DNA of 33,682 bases from a virus. The stretch lies in the IMG/VR virus record IMGVR_UViG_3300044972_000204, positions 1 to 33,682 of that record. One strand, given 5' to 3'. The first letter of the stretch is position 1; each line of letters starts with the position of its first letter. Of this stretch, positions 1 to 17,652 are shown piece by piece. Below the pieces are notes generated by a model. It saw only the letters and a program-made list of their open reading frames with translations, ran no database searches and had not been told where the DNA came from. Made by a program: the position numbers and the translations under genes.

Positions 1-142
1 ACCAGTTAGATTAGTTGCCACACCAGAAGCAGGAGTCCCCAATGCGGGAGTCACCAATGTAGGACTGTTTGACAGAACAACAGAACCTGTACCAGTAGAT
101 GAAGTTACACCAGTACCACCATTGGCAACAGGAAGAGTACCT
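1..142. repeat. Terminal direct repeat, left copy (matches 33541-33682)
   Basis: Bases 1-142 equal bases 33541-33682 except for one substitution (A at 127, T at 33667). The match begins at the first base and finishes at the last base of the window, as expected for a circular or circularly permuted genome read past its starting point. It lies inside the tail-fibre gene, so it is unlikely to be a packaging terminal repeat. The mismatch is silent (GTT versus GTA, both valine). Confidence 0.9.
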
Positions 143-483
143 GTGATGTCAGAAGTAGAAAGGCTAACAGCATCCCAAGAAACATTCGCTCCATCAGTTT
201 GGAGATACTTGTTTGCGTTACTTGTCTGTGAAGGCAAGAGATTATTGATAGCCGCAGTAGCTGTAGAAGCTCCTGTACCACCATCAGCAATTGCTAAATC
301 TGTAATACCAGTAATAGAACCACCAGTAATCGCGGCAGCAGAGTTATCTGTCTTAGTCGCAATAGCCGTGGAAATATTGTTGAACTCGGTGTCAATCTCA
401 GTACCACGAACAATCTTTAGTGGATCACCAGGAGATAAGTTATCCTTGGTAGCAAAATTAGTACTTTTTGTGTAATTTGACAA
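1..483 (-). CDS. Tail fibre, N-terminal part (gene continues across contig ends)
   Basis: This is the first 161 codons of a tail fibre or spike gene that runs off base 1 and continues in frame at the other end of the window. A TTG start at 483 is chosen because AAGGAG lies six bases upstream (490-495) and it follows the preceding tail gene directly; no ATG fits. The N-terminus (residues 1 to about 45, with RGTEIDTEFNNI) should attach to the tail. It is followed by Gly/Thr-rich shaft sequence with ANGGTG and SPTLVTPALGTP motifs common in phage fibres. Joined to the segment ending at 31318, the protein would be about 901 residues. Confidence is high for a fibre and moderate for the exact junction. 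Confidence 0.85.
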   Translation of the reverse strand, partial: MSNYTKSTNFATKDNLSPGDPLKIVRGTEIDTEFNNISTAIATKTDNSAAAITGGSITGITDLAIADGGTGASTATAAINNLLPSQTSNANKYLQTDGANVSWDAVSLSTSDITGTLPVANGGTGVTSSTGTGSVVLSNSPTLVTPALGTPASGVATNLTG

Positions 484-10761: not shown

Positions 10762-10983
10762 TCACTCACTAAGGGCTGTCTCTTTATTCGCGGATTCTAT
10801 TCTTAAAGAACTCATTTCCATATCAGGTCTGTATCCTTCATTGTGCGCATACTGATAAAGGGCTAACACTGTTTCGAATCCTCTAGATAGATCGCCTTCA
10901 CCCGCTGATAGCAAGATCATCCTCTGAGGGTTTGACAATGTTCTTTGGAAATATCGGGTTTCAGGGTTTGAAGGTCTCGCCAT
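10762..10983 (-). CDS. Small putative DNA-binding protein at the late-operon head
   Basis: A 73-residue protein: MARPSNPETRYFQRTLSNPQ, then RMILLSAGEGDLSRGFETVL, ALYQYAHNEGYRPDME. The LSxxQRxxLLxxGEGDLSRGFExxL pattern resembles ribbon-helix-helix or antitoxin-like proteins found singly in phages. It is the first leftward gene from the divergent region 10984-11116 and could regulate the late or early promoter there. The ATG at 10983 follows AAGGGAAACA. The function is inferred from position and a loose pattern. Confidence 0.5.
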   Translation of the reverse strand: MARPSNPETRYFQRTLSNPQRMILLSAGEGDLSRGFETVLALYQYAHNEGYRPDMEMSSLRIESANKETALSE

Positions 10984-11028
10984 TGTTTCCCTTGTCTGAT
11001 AAATAATTTAAAATAATTGTACTTTATT

Positions 11029-11043
11029 AGGGTTTGTCCCTAT
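11029..11043. promoter_or_regulatory. Shared operator-like motif AGGGTTTRTCCCTAT, copy A
   Basis: AGGGTTTGTCCCTAT has inverted AGGG/CCCT arms. A near-identical copy (AGGGTTTATCCCTAT) is at 18353-18367, in the other divergent gap. In both places GGTG follows 15-16 bases to the right. It would cover the -35 position of the leftward TACAAT promoter, as a repressor or activator site might. Confidence 0.6.
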
Positions 11044-11061
11044 GTTTTTTTTATTTTTTGG

Positions 11062-11070
11062 TGCTACTAT
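11062..11070 (+). promoter_or_regulatory. Extended -10 promoter candidate, rightward early operon
   Basis: TGCTACTAT fits TGn-TAtaAT with one or two changes. The upstream T-rich region gives no good -35, so this would be an extended -10 promoter or one helped by a regulator. Transcription would begin near 11077, about 40 bases before the first gene. Confidence 0.45.
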
Positions 11071-11116
11071 ATCTTCACCGACCTAGAGGAACTAGGAACT
11101 TTTAATAGGCGTCAAC

Positions 11117-11293
11117 ATGGAAACAACCAAACTTCAAAATGGCTTTAAGGTTACTTTTGAGTACCTTACACGCAAGGGCTATTACATTGTCAAGCTCTAT
11201 AAATTCGATCAAGTAGTAGATACTTGCGAGACTTCATCACACTTAGGCGCTAGAGGTTGCGTCCGCTCTTATGTCGCTAGAGCAACAGTCTAA
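11117..11293 (+). CDS. Small early protein, unknown function (58 aa)
   Basis: First gene of the rightward early operon: METTKLQNGFKVTFEYLTRK, then GYYIVKLYKFDQVVDTCETS and SHLGARGCVRSYVARATV. It looks like a small beta-beta-alpha protein with two cysteines. Support comes from the AATAGGCGT leader four bases before its ATG, shared with five other genes of this operon, and from tight spacing to the next gene. Early position suggests a host-takeover or regulatory role, which is inference. Confidence 0.6.
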   Translation: METTKLQNGFKVTFEYLTRKGYYIVKLYKFDQVVDTCETSSHLGARGCVRSYVARATV

Positions 11294-11303
11294 AGGTGTA
11301 AAC

Positions 11304-11468
11304 ATGAAACGATCTGTGATTAGAACTTCTGAGGGCTTTGTTGTTTATGGCGCTTTCACTTGCATGATGCGCTTAGATACAAACGGCAATGTTGTTTACA
11401 GCAACATGAAACCTGACTCAAAAGAGCATAAGGCAATGCTCAGCACATTCAAGGCGTACACAAAATGA
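11304..11468 (+). CDS. Small early protein, unknown function (54 aa)
   Basis: MKRSVIRTSEGFVVYGAFTC then MMRLDTNGNVVYSNMKPDSK. The in-frame opening could be extended upstream to 11271, but the ATG at 11304 has the operon's AAAGGTGT leader four bases before it, so that start is chosen. A compact beta hairpin region with a helical C-terminus is likely. The stop overlaps the following start as ATGA (11465-11468). Confidence 0.6.
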   Translation: MKRSVIRTSEGFVVYGAFTCMMRLDTNGNVVYSNMKPDSKEHKAMLSTFKAYTK

Positions 11469-11560
11469 AGAATGATCTACTCGACTATCTAACGGCTATC
11501 GGCTTGGGAGTCTGCCTATGTATCGGCCTACTCGCTTACTTCGATATCCTTGTCAAATAA
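11465..11560 (+). CDS. 31-residue single-span membrane peptide
   Basis: MKNDLLDYLTAIGLGVCLCI then GLLAYFDILVK: one hydrophobic helix (residues about 9-29). It is coupled to the gene before by ATGA and sits 21 bases before the next gene. Tiny membrane peptides made early by phages may target host membrane proteins. It could also be a chance reading frame, but the overlap and clean hydrophobic segment favour a real gene. Confidence 0.5.
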   Translation: MKNDLLDYLTAIGLGVCLCIGLLAYFDILVK

Positions 11561-11581
11561 TCTCAATTTATAGGTGTTCAC

Positions 11582-11776
11582 ATGAAAATTATCGTTCACA
11601 TTCAAGGCAACTCTGAGAAAACATTTCCATCTATCCATGAGGCGCTGACGTTCGCTAGGTTGCAAGTGTATGCAACTCAAGCGACTATCATTAGGGCTTT
11701 TGACGCTTTGCAAGATGGTAAGCTCGCACAATGGAATTATGGGTTTTCCTCAGTTGCGATATACCCTCAGAACTGA
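11582..11776 (+). CDS. Small early protein, unknown function (64 aa)
   Basis: MKIIVHIQGNSEKTFPSIHE, then ALTFARLQVYATQATIIRAF, ending SVAIYPQN. The pattern of strand, helix and strand suggests a small alpha/beta fold. The ATAGGTGT leader lies four bases before the ATG. It precedes the clamp gene by 76 bases; that gap holds a short GTGCAA/TTGCAC hairpin (around 11815-11828) and the clamp leader. No family recognised. Confidence 0.6.
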   Translation: MKIIVHIQGNSEKTFPSIHEALTFARLQVYATQATIIRAFDALQDGKLAQWNYGFSSVAIYPQN

Positions 11777-11852
11777 CATTTCAACGTATAGGCTCATGTA
11801 TTGGGCTTATGCGGTGCAATGTTGCACTACTTCAATTCAATAGGTGTAAATT

Positions 11853-12482
11853 ATGAAATTCTCTATCAAACGTAAAGATATCCGCGCAATGCTTCACTTA
11901 GCGGCCAAAAAAGACATTCGCTATTATTTGCAAGGTGTTAACGTGGTGCGCGACAATAGAGGCACTTACATCGAAGCTACTGATGGTCACGTTTTAGGCC
12001 GTTTGTTCCTCAACAACACCACCTCTGACACTAAGCAAAATGTTGTTTTGCCTACTGAGGCACTTCAAAAACTTAAAGGCACTAAAAAAACCTCTGAGGA
12101 ATGGCTCAGTTTCTCTGTCGAAGGTTTAGCGGTGGAATGTATCGACAGCCAGTCAACCACCCGATTCTCAGCACATGACGCAAGGTTTCCTGATACTGAT
12201 CGGGTCATTCCTATGGTCATAAAGGATGAAGATATCAAACCCGCAACATTTAACCCTGATCTTCTGGTACGTTTTGTAGATGTATCGGAGGAAATATACG
12301 GAAAACGTCAAATTCCTATGGTTTTACAGCGTGGCTCTCAATCTGCCCTTGTCTCATTTCCTCAAATGGACGATCACTTCATTGGGGTTATCATGCCGAC
12401 AAAAGAATATGCACCCGCTAAAGTGCCAGAGTGGTGCTATCTGCCCTCAGTAAAACCAACTGAAACCCCTGAAACTATCTAA
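11853..12482 (+). CDS. DnaN-like sliding clamp lacking domain I
   Basis: A 209-residue protein that lines up with the second and third domains of bacterial DNA polymerase III beta. IRYYLQGVNV (residues about 23-32) and YIEATDGHVLGRL (about 40-52) match the beta-clamp RYYLNG and VATDGHRLA motifs. HDARFPDTDRVIP (about 108-120) matches the VDGRFPDYRRVLP region, and FIGVIMPTK near residue 180 matches the C-terminal YVVMPMRL. With only two domains it would need to be a trimer, as PCNA and T4 gp45 are, to close a ring. It is the largest early gene, led by AATAGGTGT and followed by a terminator. No phage polymerase is present, so it should work with host Pol III or other clamp-binding host proteins. 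Confidence 0.8.
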   Translation: MKFSIKRKDIRAMLHLAAKKDIRYYLQGVNVVRDNRGTYIEATDGHVLGRLFLNNTTSDTKQNVVLPTEALQKLKGTKKTSEEWLSFSVEGLAVECIDSQSTTRFSAHDARFPDTDRVIPMVIKDEDIKPATFNPDLLVRFVDVSEEIYGKRQIPMVLQRGSQSALVSFPQMDDHFIGVIMPTKEYAPAKVPEWCYLPSVKPTETPETI

Positions 12483-12493
12483 TTTTAAGACTG

Positions 12494-12542
12494 TAAGCCC
12501 TTAATTTAGGGGCTTATGGCCTTGGAATTTCCCAAGGTTTTT
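12494..12542 (+). terminator. Hairpin pair ending in T-run after the clamp gene
   Basis: Two hairpins follow the clamp stop: TAAGCCC/GGGCTTA (12494-12516), then CCTTGG/CCAAGG (12520-12537) followed directly by TTTTT (12538-12542). The second fits a weak intrinsic terminator. It probably attenuates rather than ends transcription, because genes in the same direction continue. Confidence 0.6.
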
Positions 12543-12557
12543 AATAGGCGTTAAAAA

Positions 12558-12830
12558 ATGATAGCAATTCACACAAAATATCTTGGCCCTACTAACACTC
12601 GCGGCTCGCGTATTAAGGCTTACACGGCCTCATGGGGTACTCATAAAGGCTTCGCAATCTCAGTACCTTATAACCATGCCTTAGATGGTGTAAACGTACA
12701 TTTTGAGGCGGTTAAAGCGTTAATCAAAAAGCACAATTTAGACTGGAATTTAGAAGCTATGCGTTATGGAGACAGCGCAGATGGGCGGGGTTTCAGTTTT
12801 TGTTTTGATTCTTCAAAAGTAGAAGGTTAA
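12558..12830 (+). CDS. Conserved phage/plasmid small protein, unknown function
   Basis: A 90-residue protein beginning MIAIHTKYLGPTNTRGSRIK, a start I recall from widespread phage and plasmid hypothetical proteins (KYLGPTNTRGSRIKA). The centre has ISVPYNHALD with helices following (EAVKALIKKHNLDW), and it ends with a Gly/Phe-rich strand (RGFSFCFDSS). No function is known for the family. AATAGGCGT lies six bases before the ATG. Confidence 0.7.
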   Translation: MIAIHTKYLGPTNTRGSRIKAYTASWGTHKGFAISVPYNHALDGVNVHFEAVKALIKKHNLDWNLEAMRYGDSADGRGFSFCFDSSKVEG

Positions 12831-12833
12831 ACC

Positions 12834-13061
12834 ATGACCACTTATACAAATGATCCTTGGACTGATAAACATTTCGGCCCTACTGTTGAGGTATTTATCC
12901 CAATTTCGAAGCCAAAAAGCTACTATGAAAGCGAGTTTTCTAGGCTTGGCAACACTCCCGCCACAATGCAAATTAGAAACGATCAGGGACAAACTCGATG
13001 GATGACTTTAAAACCTGAACAGATCGTTAAAATTTTAGAAATACTCAAAAAAGGCGAATGA
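12834..13061 (+). CDS. Small early protein, unknown function (75 aa)
   Basis: MTTYTNDPWTDKHFGPTVEV then FIPISKPKSYYESEFSRLGN and a helical end (LKPEQIVKILEILKKGE). GAAGG precedes the ATG by seven bases, and the gene begins three bases after the upstream stop. I recognise no family. The ISKPKSYYE and MTLKPEQI stretches look like a small alpha/beta protein. Confidence 0.55.
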   Translation: MTTYTNDPWTDKHFGPTVEVFIPISKPKSYYESEFSRLGNTPATMQIRNDQGQTRWMTLKPEQIVKILEILKKGE

Positions 13062-13062
13062 A

Positions 13063-13266
13063 ATGAATAAAGATCAAATTCAATTCTTAGCAGAAGATGC
13101 TTTGCATGAGGCTTGTCGGCTCATTCAAGATAAATTAGGCGTAACAGATGGCTTCAATGCTTCAATTTTCTTTAGTGGTGAGCGTGAAGATGCTATATAT
13201 GAGATTTTCCGTCAATATATAGAAGATGAACTAATGATTAAACAATATAAAACAGAACAAATTTGA
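13063..13266 (+). CDS. Small acidic early protein (67 aa), unknown
   Basis: MNKDQIQFLAEDALHEACRL, then IQDKLGVTDGFNASIFFSGE, then a helical acidic end (IYEIFRQYIEDELMIKQY). Largely helical with a net negative charge. It starts one base after the previous stop, in the same operon. No family or catalytic motif recognised. Confidence 0.55.
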   Translation: MNKDQIQFLAEDALHEACRLIQDKLGVTDGFNASIFFSGEREDAIYEIFRQYIEDELMIKQYKTEQI

Positions 13267-13276
13267 GGTGTTAAAA

Positions 13277-13450
13277 ATGATATTTCTTTTTGAATTTTAC
13301 GCAAATACAAATGATGAATACAGGTCTGAATATAAAGAATATAAAGCAGACTCATTAGCAAAAGCAGAGAATAAGTTAATAGAGGATTATCCAGACTGTA
13401 GGATATTAGGAACTTATATTCCAGTTAATGAAAGATTCGCCATTCTATGA
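13277..13450 (+). CDS. Last gene of the early operon (57 aa), unknown
   Basis: MIFLFEFYANTNDEYRSEYK, then EYKADSLAKAENKLIEDYPD and CRILGTYIPVNERFAIL. The strand-helix-strand pattern is like a small ferredoxin-type fold. The frame opens upstream at a GTG, but the ATG at 13277 is chosen because GAGGTGT, the operon's leader variant, lies five bases before it. A terminator follows after about 50 bases. Confidence 0.55.
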   Translation: MIFLFEFYANTNDEYRSEYKEYKADSLAKAENKLIEDYPDCRILGTYIPVNERFAIL

Positions 13451-13501
13451 TTTACGCTTGCCTTGCCTTAGTTCTGCGAATACTCACTAAACGCTAACAC
13501 C

Positions 13502-13528
13502 AAAGCCACCCTAAAAAGTGGCTTTTTT
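13502..13528 (+). terminator. Strong terminator of the rightward early operon
   Basis: AAAGCCAC, loop CCTAAAAA, GTGGCTTT and a run of T to 13528 form an 8-bp GC-rich stem with a six-T tail. It sits between two convergent operons. On the other strand the tail is only TTTG, so it should act mainly rightward. Confidence 0.9.
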
Positions 13529-13603
13529 GTTGTCTGTCAAAATCAACGTATAAGCGATTATTTCTAATTCCCTAGTGCTATATCATTCAAGCGTAAAAAA
13601 CGC

Positions 13604-13894
13604 CTAGAACGGGCTTCTATCGATTTTTAGAGGTGTTTCCTCGCACAATCTGCGGATGGTTTCATTCAGCGCATCAATTTCTAGCATTTTCCTGATTAAC
13701 CATGCACGTTTTTGACCATGCCATCCTAAAATCGGGTTTCTATGACAGTCAACACAAAGGGCGATGCAAGTGTACTGTAAACCCTGTTTGTAGTGATGGG
13801 CTTCGCTTGGCCCTTGTGCTTCGCAAACAGAACAAGGGAGAGACTTAACCCTTGCAAGGTGTAGCCGTTCCCTTGTGTTTAGTTTGTTGTTCAT
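13604..13894 (-). CDS. Ref-like RecA-dependent HNH nuclease
   Basis: A 96-residue protein with C21-S-V-C24, E-A-H33-H34, C47-V-D-C50-H51 and GWHG (57-60), followed by a helical end. The CxxC...HH...CxxCH...HG pattern matches the zinc-bound HNH core of P1 Ref and related small phage recombination nucleases, which cut DNA in RecA displacement loops. It is the last gene of the leftward recombination/replication operon that also carries RusA. An ordinary small HNH nuclease is the alternative. Its ATG overlaps the previous stop (13891-13894). Confidence 0.65.
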   Translation of the reverse strand: MNNKLNTRERLHLARVKSLPCSVCEAQGPSEAHHYKQGLQYTCIALCVDCHRNPILGWHGQKRAWLIRKMLEIDALNETIRRLCEETPLKIDRSPF

Positions 13895-14964: not shown

Positions 14965-15393
14965 TTACCCTAAGTCTTCTTTCACCATTACTTCGACTGC
15001 GGGTGTTTCTGCATAAACCTTGGTCACATGGAGATTGACCACCTGTTTGTCATCAAGGTAAACAATGTCGTTCATCCCATCTAAAAAACACTTTGCTATG
15101 TTGTCCAGATCAGGCTTTTTAGTTGGTCTTAAGACTCCTGACAATGCGTCTTTACGCTTCTGTTTTGAATAGGAAGCGGGTATTCCAACTCTGATATAAA
15201 TTGCGACTGTCATAGGCGTGTCTAGAGGCTCTGAAGAACCCATTGCCGCCTTTGCCATCATCCTGATTTCGTCTTCATAGGTCTTTGTCTTTTGTGGGGT
15301 GTAGGTAGATGTAAATTTTCCTCTTCTAGCAAATCTTGGCCTGCCCTTGCCGACAGGCTCACCATAAACTGTGTACATAAGCATCATTGTCAT
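14965..15393 (-). CDS. rusA: RusA-family Holliday junction resolvase
   Basis: A 142-residue protein with the RusA core KKPDLDNIAKCFLDGMND (residues 92-109) followed by IVYLDDKQV. Asp95, Asp97 and Asp114 or 115 match the acidic catalytic set, and VGKGRPRFARRG near the start is typical of the family. It resolves four-way junctions made during phage recombination and removes branches before packaging. Several ATG codons open the gene; the one at 15393 is chosen because it forms ATGA with the upstream stop. Full length for the family. Confidence 0.9.
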   Translation of the reverse strand: MTMMLMYTVYGEPVGKGRPRFARRGKFTSTYTPQKTKTYEDEIRMMAKAAMGSSEPLDTPMTVAIYIRVGIPASYSKQKRKDALSGVLRPTKKPDLDNIAKCFLDGMNDIVYLDDKQVVNLHVTKVYAETPAVEVMVKEDLG

Positions 15394-15700: not shown

Positions 15701-15854
15701 GCTTATCACCAAATTCAGAAACTGCCCAACCATGTGATAAACCAAGCCCAAAAGACCAAACAGCGAATCCAACTGTGCTAGACCAAAACATAACTATTAC
15801 TCCAACAATTGCTAAACCTATTGCAAAAAATCCAAGTTTTTCTTGAGCTGTCAT
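15687..15854 (-). CDS. Small two-span membrane protein (55 aa)
   Basis: MTAQEKLGFFAIGLAIVGVI, VMFWSSTVGFAVWSFGLGLS, HGWAVSEFGDKHEPR. Two hydrophobic spans (residues about 8-24 and 28-45). The ATG forms ATGA with the methyltransferase stop, and its 3' end overlaps the next gene by 14 bases, so it is locked into the operon. Function unknown; it could alter the host membrane or block superinfection, which is inference. Confidence 0.55.
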   Translation of the reverse strand: MTAQEKLGFFAIGLAIVGVIVMFWSSTVGFAVWSFGLGLSHGWAVSEFGDKHEPR

Positions 15855-16933
15855 GCAAAATCCAATGCTATTTGTGCTGTTCGCTTCTTTTGAAGTTTTC
15901 CATATTCAGGATTCAACTCACACCCAATATATTGCCTTCCAAGGTCTTGAGCTACTTGAGCGGTAGTTCCTGATCCCATAAATGGGTCTAAAACAATTCC
16001 CCCAAGTGGAGCGCCAGCAAGAATGCAAGGTTCAATCAGTTCTGTTGGAAAAACTGCGAAGTGCGCACCTGAATATGGCTTTGTAGCGACATTCCAAACA
16101 CTTCGTTTGTTTGCCATTTCATAAGACTTATCCAATCCAGAATGAGGCTGTAAACCTGTTCCTTCATTGTGATACTTACCATTTGTCCTGTCTCTCGTTC
16201 CCCAATCTTCTTTTACAGGCTCTTTGATTGCAACATGGTCAAAATGATATTTATGGGATTTGCTCAACAAGAAAATGTATTCGTGCGCTTTGGTGCAACG
16301 ATCTTGAACAGACTCAGGCATTGGATTAGGTTTACTCCAAACAATGTCCTGTCGCAAATACCAACCATCAGCTCTCAATGCAAATGCAAGCATCCAAGGT
16401 ATCCCAATCAGGTCTTTGGTTTTCAGTCCAGTAGCGTGTAACTTGTCCAGCTTCCTGTCATTAGCTGGCATATTGTTTCTGCCCTCACGCTGATATTCTG
16501 GACTTGCTCTGGCAAAACCATTGCTGTTGCAATAACTGTCTCCAATGTTGACCCATAGAGTGCCATCATCCTCAAGGACATCCCAAACACATCTGAACAC
16601 CTCTACCATGTTGTTTATGTATTCTTCAGGAGTGTCTTCTAACCCCAACTGTTCATCAATGCGTTTAGCTCCGCAAATGTGGCAGTTTGAGGATGATCCG
16701 CCTCTGTGACCAACTTCAGGACGCAAAACTTTTGTTCCTCGCTTTGGATCATTCCACTTTGTCGGCATTGATATGGAATGTTCACAATTAGGATCGCCAC
16801 CTTCCCATTTTGCTGTTCCATAGTCTCGCAAGCCGTAATATGGAGGGCTTGTTATACAAGTTTGAGCTTTAACGCCTTGTGATGCCCATTTACGCATAAT
16901 TTCACGGCAATCACCAAATTCAATCTTATTCAT
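15851..16933 (-). CDS. DNA methyltransferase (N4-cytosine or N6-adenine, beta-type order)
   Basis: A 360-residue enzyme with the catalytic motif TSPPYYGLRDYG (residues 28-39) ahead of the AdoMet motif DPFMGSGTT (about 316-324), the order seen in beta-class amino-methyltransferases. SPPY fits N4-cytosine or N6-adenine transfer. Between them lies an inserted zinc-binding-like region (C50-E-H52 and C84-H-I-C87). No partner restriction enzyme is present, so it is an orphan enzyme, likely protecting phage DNA from host restriction or marking it. It shares ATGA with the replication initiator gene and so should be expressed with it. Confidence 0.92.
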   Translation of the reverse strand: MNKIEFGDCREIMRKWASQGVKAQTCITSPPYYGLRDYGTAKWEGGDPNCEHSISMPTKWNDPKRGTKVLRPEVGHRGGSSSNCHICGAKRIDEQLGLEDTPEEYINNMVEVFRCVWDVLEDDGTLWVNIGDSYCNSNGFARASPEYQREGRNNMPANDRKLDKLHATGLKTKDLIGIPWMLAFALRADGWYLRQDIVWSKPNPMPESVQDRCTKAHEYIFLLSKSHKYHFDHVAIKEPVKEDWGTRDRTNGKYHNEGTGLQPHSGLDKSYEMANKRSVWNVATKPYSGAHFAVFPTELIEPCILAGAPLGGIVLDPFMGSGTTAQVAQDLGRQYIGCELNPEYGKLQKKRTAQIALDFA

Positions 16934-17652
16934 GCTTTTCTCCTAATTAAATTAAATACAGCAAGTTCTTCAGGTGTTGGTGGACGAGTTTTTTTCTCAT
17001 CCTCTTTAATCTTTAAAAGCGCAGGGTCAGGCTCATTTGATGGAGGAACTGTGACCCTACCAATGTCGGCAGGATTAAGTTTTTTCGCAACCCAATCTGC
17101 TTTGAATGCTTGCCAACCACGCACACAACATTCTTCTAATGCTTTCTCAAGAGTCCAACCTGCTTTTTCAGCTTCTGACATCAAACCATTTAAAGCTCGT
17201 TGAGTCATAGGCGCTCGCTTGGCTTTTCTCAAAGTAAGAAAGTCTTGCCAAACAGAAATAGAAACGCCTTCAGGCGGTGCAACGCTAGTTGCTTTCTTCT
17301 CTCTCTTTGTCTCTGTCTCTCTCTCTGTCTCTGGGATAGCATTATGCAAGCGTTCTGCTAGCACTCCGCTGACAATTACAAAAAAGTCTTTATCAATCAA
17401 TGGTTTAAGACCATCTTCGTATTCTTTAGGTGTGATGTGAAGACGAAAGACTAGCTCATCTAGTGAGCCATCAAAAATACCATCTTTTGATTCGCTTGCA
17501 AGCAACCAAAGCATAGGTGCTAGCGCCTTGCTAGCAATAGGCAAGCAGATATAAGACCTGTTGTTTAACAGTTCACGATGGAGTTTTATCCAAGGTGGGC
17601 AACGATCTTTGTAATGTTGAAAGACCGCCCAATTCTTAGGCTGTAATAGCAT
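16930..17652 (-). CDS. Replication initiator, lambda O-like replisome organiser
   Basis: A 240-residue protein. The N-terminal domain (WIKLHRELLNNRSYICLPIA, then SKALAPMLWLLASESKDGIF, DGSLDELVFRLHI) is the winged-helix fold typical of phage replisome organisers that bind an origin and recruit host helicase. A charged linker (residues about 108-122, ETERETETKREKK) follows. The C-terminal half (WQDFLTLRKAKRAPMTQRAL, EECCVRGWQAFKADW) resembles the helicase-loading portion. It is preceded by a strong promoter at 17752-17780. The coding DNA of the linker is a 40-base pyrimidine-rich tract that could mark the origin. Confidence 0.8.
   Translation of the reverse strand: MLLQPKNWAVFQHYKDRCPPWIKLHRELLNNRSYICLPIASKALAPMLWLLASESKDGIFDGSLDELVFRLHITPKEYEDGLKPLIDKDFFVIVSGVLAERLHNAIPETERETETKREKKATSVAPPEGVSISVWQDFLTLRKAKRAPMTQRALNGLMSEAEKAGWTLEKALEECCVRGWQAFKADWVAKKLNPADIGRVTVPPSNEPDPALLKIKEDEKKTRPPTPEELAVFNLIRRKA
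17293..17332. repeat. Pyrimidine-rich (TCTCTG)n tract inside the initiator gene; possible origin
   Basis: About 40 bases of C and T with only two or three G residues, containing repeated TGTCTCTG. It codes for the Glu/Thr/Arg linker. Lambdoid phages keep their replication origin in the same place, the middle of the O gene, and low-complexity tracts can unwind easily. This is a candidate only; no clear iterons of 15-20 bp are seen. Confidence 0.4.

Follow-up and report, generated by a model that had tools for sequence, protein, structure and literature searches.

Sliding clamps are thought to work by encircling DNA. The clamps T4 gp45 and PCNA are built of two complete domains per subunit and close as trimers, as set out in a review. 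For the bacterial clamp, the beta subunit (DnaN) of Escherichia coli, PMC11139829 names seven conserved residues of the dimer interface (I78, R103, F106, I272, L273, E298 and E304), lists 18 residues of the clamp-binding-motif (CBM) pocket, and names Q149 as well as Gln15, Gly23, Arg24, Arg73 and Arg80 as contacts to DNA. The same review describes a monomeric variant, beta I272A/L273A, that still binds DNA and binds the delta subunit about 50-fold more tightly than the dimer does, and that is unable to tether Pol III for processive replication (PMC11139829).

Here we describe a phage protein, which we call the half-clamp, encoded at 11853..12482 on the plus strand of a 33,682-nucleotide stretch of viral DNA (IMG/VR record IMGVR_UViG_3300044972_000204), the whole of which is referred to as the window. 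The gene was assigned to the phrog_3007 family from its ORF, from Pfam and PHROG matches and from an AlphaFold2 model. The half-clamp is homologous to DnaN but lacks two defining features of a bacterial sliding clamp, domain I and a complete domain III. In common with E. coli beta it has domain II, the second half of domain III, the residues of the CBM pocket and the Q149 loop; unlike E. coli beta, it has 209 rather than 366 residues and is without domain I, the first half of domain III and the seven named interface residues. It resembles the monomeric variant in having no dimer contact and an intact pocket, but the variant has three full domains, whereas the phage protein is natural and its interface regions are absent altogether. 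Like gp45 and PCNA it has fewer than three domains per subunit; it differs from them in having one and a half domains and in being a relative of DnaN by sequence, and neither the model nor the alignments contain the two complete processivity-fold domains per subunit that characterise gp45 and PCNA. Our evidence on the architecture, the beta-like fold, the loss of named interface residues, the selective conservation that sets apart the pocket and a basic loop, and the module context is computational.

One and a half clamp domains

An earlier note on this DNA, made from the sequence alone, had described a 209-residue relative of the bacterial beta clamp bearing the motifs YYLQG, EATDGH, RFPDTDRVIP and a final VIMP, and the ORF with all four motifs is indeed present. 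In the search with DnaN domain HMMs that the note had proposed, the window protein matched PF02767 (domain II) as its sole Pfam family (E 9.7e-7; 29.5 bits against a cut-off of 27) and matched neither PF00712 (domain I) nor PF02768 (domain III). Among 57 diverse relatives, all matched PF02767 at E <= 1 (best E 4.5e-13), four matched PF00712 weakly (best E 0.0016), and PF02768 was not among the 14 Pfam families matched; nor did PF02768 match anywhere in the window record at E <= 10, whereas it did match in 11 of 14 control genomes. Moreover, a profile of the 57 relatives matched the beta clamp of P. aeruginosa with E 1.1e-27. The half-clamp is thus genuinely homologous to bacterial beta clamps, as had been claimed.

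The match between the 57-relative profile and P. aeruginosa beta falls into two main stretches, 14-118 on 143-252 and 126-180 on 317-366, so that the alignment jumps from residue ~252 to residue ~317 of that clamp. The pattern on E. coli beta was similar, but there the first HMMER stretch extends to residue 275. Because this stretch can thus take in part of domain III's first half, the third repeat unit of the half-clamp (aa 122-185) was scored directly, giving -2.4 against residues 310-366 of E. coli beta and -31 against residues 250-311; shuffled controls scored -39.5 ± 6.2 (313-366) and -44.6 ± 5.8 (250-311). Alignment with hhalign placed one deletion at about residues 255-312 of beta, with a probability of 99.5%.

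The AlphaFold2 model of the half-clamp, computed as a monomer (mean pLDDT 92.2, pTM 0.85), shows five strand/helix elements twice (units 2-54 and 62-106) and then a helix (135-149) and three strands (156-160, 165-168 and 176-180) that make up the third unit (135-180). With VIA-align, residues 1-185 of the model superpose on residues 126-366 of E. coli beta (7azk_B) with a Z-score of 17.0 and an rmsd of 2.6 over 175 aligned residues, at an identity of ~20% overall. A fold not of clamp type would have spoken against the earlier reading; the predicted fold is beta-like. A 177-residue protein from a distant lineage (L232-type; pLDDT 79) likewise superposes on 7azk_B 126..366 (Z 12.9, rmsd 3.2, 166 aligned). 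In this second model the second helix of domain II is missing and the C-terminal part is at low confidence.

Since the profile, hhalign, the unit scores and the model with its superposition concur, the protein consists of about one and a half domains and not two, and it lacks domain I as well as roughly residues 254-312 of E. coli beta, which form the first half of domain III. A complete domain II occupies aa 1-121 (11853..12215, plus strand), as judged from PF02767, the first profile stretch and model strands and helices at 2-106. It is followed by the second half only of domain III (aa 131-185; 12243..12407, plus strand), which corresponds to E. coli beta ~313-366 according to the profile, hhalign, the unit scores and the model. 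The C-terminal tail (aa 186-209; 12408..12479, plus strand) lies past the end of beta, as seen in the alignment of relatives; it is absent or different in distant relatives, and model confidence is lower at its very end. The claim that the protein comprises domains II and III therefore stands for the former and fails for the first half of the latter. The analogy with the two-domain trimeric clamps PCNA and gp45 does not hold either, the half-clamp having three of the four repeat units that a two-domain clamp has and neither of the two regions that form the dimer-interface faces. We reject the two-domain trimer reading because of the missing half of domain III, on the evidence of the model, hhalign and the third-unit scores.

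Domain I of the beta clamp requires some 120 residues. Upstream of the half-clamp ATG the window has 1 open in-frame codon, 46 close relatives have at most 31 and 27 further relatives at most 69, and so no domain I is hidden upstream. Thus the absence of domain I that had been claimed is borne out both by the short upstream frames and by the lack of a PF00712 match in the window protein, and an intact N-terminal domain in an upstream frame, which would have told against the claim, was found neither in the window nor in any of these relatives.

Docking pocket, DNA-contact loop and interface

All 18 of the pocket residues listed in PMC11139829 fall in segments that the half-clamp retains; 17 of them can be aligned, and at 13 the window protein has the identical residue. 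By alignment to the listed residues, the pocket includes five segments, all on the plus strand: R23-L26 (11919..11930; E. coli R152-L155), T43-L48 (11979..11996; T172-L177), P113-V118 (12189..12206; P242-V247), N134-L137 (12252..12263; N320-Y323) and V179-K184 (12387..12404; V360-R365). Across the 57 relatives the mean conservation of the pocket is 0.80, compared with 0.43 at the remaining positions within residues 1-185 (p 6e-8 by the Mann-Whitney test). Its weaker points are R176 and M364, which are poorly conserved, V344, which is unalignable, and Y323, which is L or Y. (Note that the geometry of the pocket is derived from the superposition and the alignment, and that conservation is no proof of binding because some pocket residues may be kept for structural reasons.) Retention and conservation of the pocket support the earlier idea that the protein may engage clamp partners of the host.

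Just before segment R23-L26, K19 and K20 stand at the positions of E. coli H148 and Q149, the latter being the named DNA contact that lies in the half-clamp; K or R occupies the H148 position in 88% and the Q149 position in 93% of the 57 relatives, so that this loop is more basic than its E. coli counterpart. The other DNA contacts named in PMC11139829 (Gln15, Gly23, Arg24, Arg73 and Arg80) are all within domain I and are missing from the half-clamp. The same applies to the dimer interface, in that all seven of the residues named there fall in segments that are missing. Because the interface parts are missing and the pocket parts are retained, neither a canonical dimer nor a trimer of the PCNA/gp45 type is to be expected.

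Because the ring-closing parts are lost and the pocket is almost unchanged, the half-clamp probably captures host replication proteins without encircling DNA. The reading that we favour, with chances that we consider about even, is that of a ring-less docking module: an adaptor, monomeric or open, that would have lost ring closure in evolution and retained just the pocket and a loop for DNA contact, and that captures host replisome proteins, in many cases for phages without a recognisable polymerase. The half-clamp would then represent the inter-domain junction of beta that holds the CBM pocket, minus the parts that build the dimer interface, and with the interface regions gone the usual ring would not form. 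It would bind the CBM peptides of host replisome proteins, such as Pol III alpha, the delta subunit of the clamp loader and others, and the phage could in this way recruit host replication proteins to its own DNA or keep them there, or draw them off the host clamp. The monomeric variant beta I272A/L273A offers a precedent.

A different assembly would make the protein a working sliding clamp, for instance with half-domains of two subunits joined as a single pseudo-domain to give a C-shaped dimer or a 12-unit tetramer (equivalent to six domains) around DNA. Three units in each of four subunits do yield the 12 units of the six-domain clamp of established structures, the DNA-contact loop is richer in basic residues than that of E. 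coli, and in several phages a family-A polymerase gene is adjacent. We nevertheless regard such a ring as unlikely, given that the half-clamp lacks the regions that make up either natural interface face, that symmetric pairing would be expected to break the head-to-tail order of known clamps, and that the scanned subset of window genes included no recognisable clamp loader.

Replication modules and candidate partners

The earlier note had also held that the phage has no DNA polymerase, and the 33.7-kb window record, which may be a fragment, yielded no family-A, -B or -C polymerase. The window does encode a lambda O-like replication protein (16930..17652, minus strand; phrog_26426, E 2e-29; phrog_678, E 9.3e-21), which by these matches is probably the phage's own initiator, together with an ERF annealing protein, an SSB-like protein and a DNA methyltransferase. 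In all eight records of the window clade, the window included, no polymerase was found, whereas 12 of 21 other half-clamp records have one of family A (11 above the Pfam cut-off); PolB and Pol III alpha were found in none of the 29 records (any of which may be a fragment). Searches of 14 control genomes matched families A, B and C in 10, 5 and 10, respectively. On a half-clamp tree of the 29 records, in which long branches leave the deep joins unsure, well-supported (starred) branches imply at least three changes in the presence of a polymerase.

The half-clamp gene follows the family-A polymerase gene in BcepC6B and in Acinetobacter phage 4316, and such a gene, or part of one, adjoins it in these two phages and at loci L122, L174 and L217. 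This adjacency suggests a role of the half-clamp in the phage's own replisome. A canonical CBM that could make the polymerase its partner is absent from 11 of 12 phage family-A polymerases, the twelfth having an internal match only; the G011 polymerase, scanned in both frames, has none. (At the prophage-like locus L266, G011:C1:2000-6500, the polymerase region is in two frames of 442 and 327 codons, whereas relatives have it in one frame of 702-758 codons, which reflects either breakage of the gene or an error in sequencing. At L174, 5338-7914, the N part of a polymerase, a GIY-YIG homing endonuclease and the C part of the polymerase lie beside the half-clamp, the polymerase gene being apparently split by that of the endonuclease.)

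In the lambda-type Hafnia phage yong1 (L367 5001-5537), rexAB-cI-cro-cII are followed by the half-clamp and then by replication genes, with ninB/G/H and Q present; L232 has repressor-type genes, the half-clamp and then O-like and DnaB genes. Xanthomonas phage Rb1 (L366 3970-6094) has the half-clamp directly between genes for an RdgC-type protein and a ssDNA-binding protein, with annealing-protein and exonuclease genes upstream. In Bcep781 the gene is among head genes. A survey of neighbours (181 ORFs from 34 loci, of which 82 picked by position and length were scanned and the first 25 families listed, with small tallies) found the half-clamp often among small ORFs. Overall, the half-clamp is often in replication or recombination modules, and because these modules carry it with or without a polymerase it is independent of a phage polymerase. 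For the polymerase-less phages with an O-type protein, capture of the host replisome would most likely be the most economical use of a half-clamp.

The same retained pocket and lost ring parts would also suit a decoy that occupies CBM-bearing proteins (Pol III, delta, Hda, MutS and ligase) and so stops or re-times host replication or repair, with no service to phage synthesis. Although the position among small ORFs and the polymerase-less window clade fit a decoy as well, we give it a low probability, for in several lineages, lambda-type phages with repressor genes among them, the gene is inside replication or recombination modules.

With respect to partners encoded in the window, CBM matches over its 56 ORFs numbered three for the pentameric motif (1.6 expected) and five for the hexameric motif (1.5 expected), one of the five being inside the half-clamp itself. 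The phage N6/N4 DNA methyltransferase (gene 15851-16933) ends in a candidate CBM, QIALDF (15857..15874, minus strand), followed by one residue. As judged by match to consensus, this tail resembles the consensus QLxLxF of hexameric clamp-binding motifs as well as LQLELDF, a phage-display peptide cited in PMC11139829. Among 80 relatives of the methyltransferase (the best 80 of 220), 74 have a tail that fits a loose form of the motif and 17 one that fits a strict form, and when each of the 36 distinct tails is counted once, 32 and 12 of them fit. For 14-mers from inside the proteins the loose and strict forms matched at 0.17% and 0; shuffled tails matched at 22% and 5.8%, so often because the composition of the tail favours the pattern. 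A half-clamp was found in the examined flank of just seven of the 80 methyltransferase loci, which led us to reject the tail as a dedicated partner of the half-clamp and argues that it is probably aimed at the host clamp. These patterns suggest that phage methylases with a QIALDF-type tail ride on the sliding clamp of the host.

Family, labels and constraint

The half-clamp is a member of a family of short phage proteins already known, by annotation, as 'DNA polymerase III beta subunit'. We found no description of a half-domain clamp architecture in the literature searched on phage and short clamps, which included text from PMC11139829, PMC9690074 and PMC3483164; subscription papers were mostly outside the search, and an earlier description is possible. 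Sequence relatives of similar length include Bcep781 gp15, BcepC6B gp31 and proteins of Acinetobacter phage 4316 and Hafnia phage yong1; matches by fold include BFVD A0A6J5S145 (202 aa) and Burkholderia phage AH2 gp20 (209 aa), with TM-scores by query of 0.79 and 0.62. A survey of viral replicases by Kazlauskas and Venclovas (2011) is reportedly the most relevant prior work.

Searching with the window protein (tblastn) recovered relatives in 104 phage records, and a distant lambda-type relative used as query matched 255, where longer clamps may be present in some. Scans of viral contigs with four queries confirmed 48, 412, 317 and 342 relatives in overlapping sets, the best 80 being taken from each of the last three. 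The loci examined contain 253 relative ORFs (some contigs counted twice), of which 248 are not cut by a contig end and 161 are distinct; the 248 are 68-228 aa long (median 208; 5th-95th percentile 182-213 aa), and no full-length clamp is among them. A first-pass scan of bacterial genomes recovered no relative, an alignment-based scan of representative bacterial genomes only three half-clamp loci, and nothing in the E. coli genome collection closely matched the lambda-type half-clamp region L232. To the terminases of named phages, that of the window is only distantly related.

In PHROGs, phrog_3007 is named 'RusA-like Holliday junction resolvase'. The window protein matches this profile with E 7.7e-30, its residues 1-185 aligning to positions 1-186 of the 190 in the profile, and all 57 relatives match it at E <= 0.001; the weaker PHROG match of the window protein is to phrog_947, 'DNA polymerase processivity factor'. 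Among the 40 matches listed of the 104 phage records, 17 are labelled as RusA, 15 as a beta subunit or clamp and six only as 'hypothetical', two having no annotation, and RusA-type labels were also met among the 15 listed of the 255 matches to the lambda-type query. That the half-clamp might itself be a RusA-like resolvase, as these labels have it, is hardly credible: it folds like beta, the 14 Pfam families matched by the 57 relatives do not include PF05866, and the window carries its own, separate RusA gene (14965..15393, minus strand; PF05866, E 1.4e-37; phrog_140, E 6e-46). The name of phrog_3007 looks like a propagated annotation error.

The half-clamp ORF is real and is under strong purifying selection, with dN/dS of 0.04-0.15 against nine relatives (Nei-Gojobori; synonymous sites near saturation). 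That it is what remains of a full-length clamp gene after decay, as the annotation of Bcep781 gp15 ('DNA Pol III b subunit fragment') and the two missing DnaN parts could suggest, is exceedingly improbable in view of these ratios, of the similar length of most of the 248 ORFs and of the same beta span being matched in lineages ~23-30% identical. A pseudogene or an assembly artefact is ruled out by the upstream-frame check, the constancy of length in relatives and the dN/dS values.

A scan around the half-clamp gene yielded no convincing promoter (two sites, below the shuffled count). The region 10900-13650 has seven terminator-like sites, where 2.1 are expected from shuffles (both strands pooled), hinting at short transcription units. 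In addition, a repeated leader, A-T/A-AGGYGT, was noticed by eye just before the ATG of several small plus-strand genes, the half-clamp included (11100-11119, 11291-11306, 11570-11585, 11840-11856 and 12543-12560).

These findings correct the 'RusA' label, by which many phage genomes misleadingly name members of this family. If the ring-less reading is true, the half-clamp would offer a ready-made minimal protein with which to study or block clamp interactions, a target of antibiotic research. A large natural family with the pocket and without the ring parts would mean that docking and encirclement have been separated, and would show how polymerase-less phages may commandeer the Pol III of their hosts.
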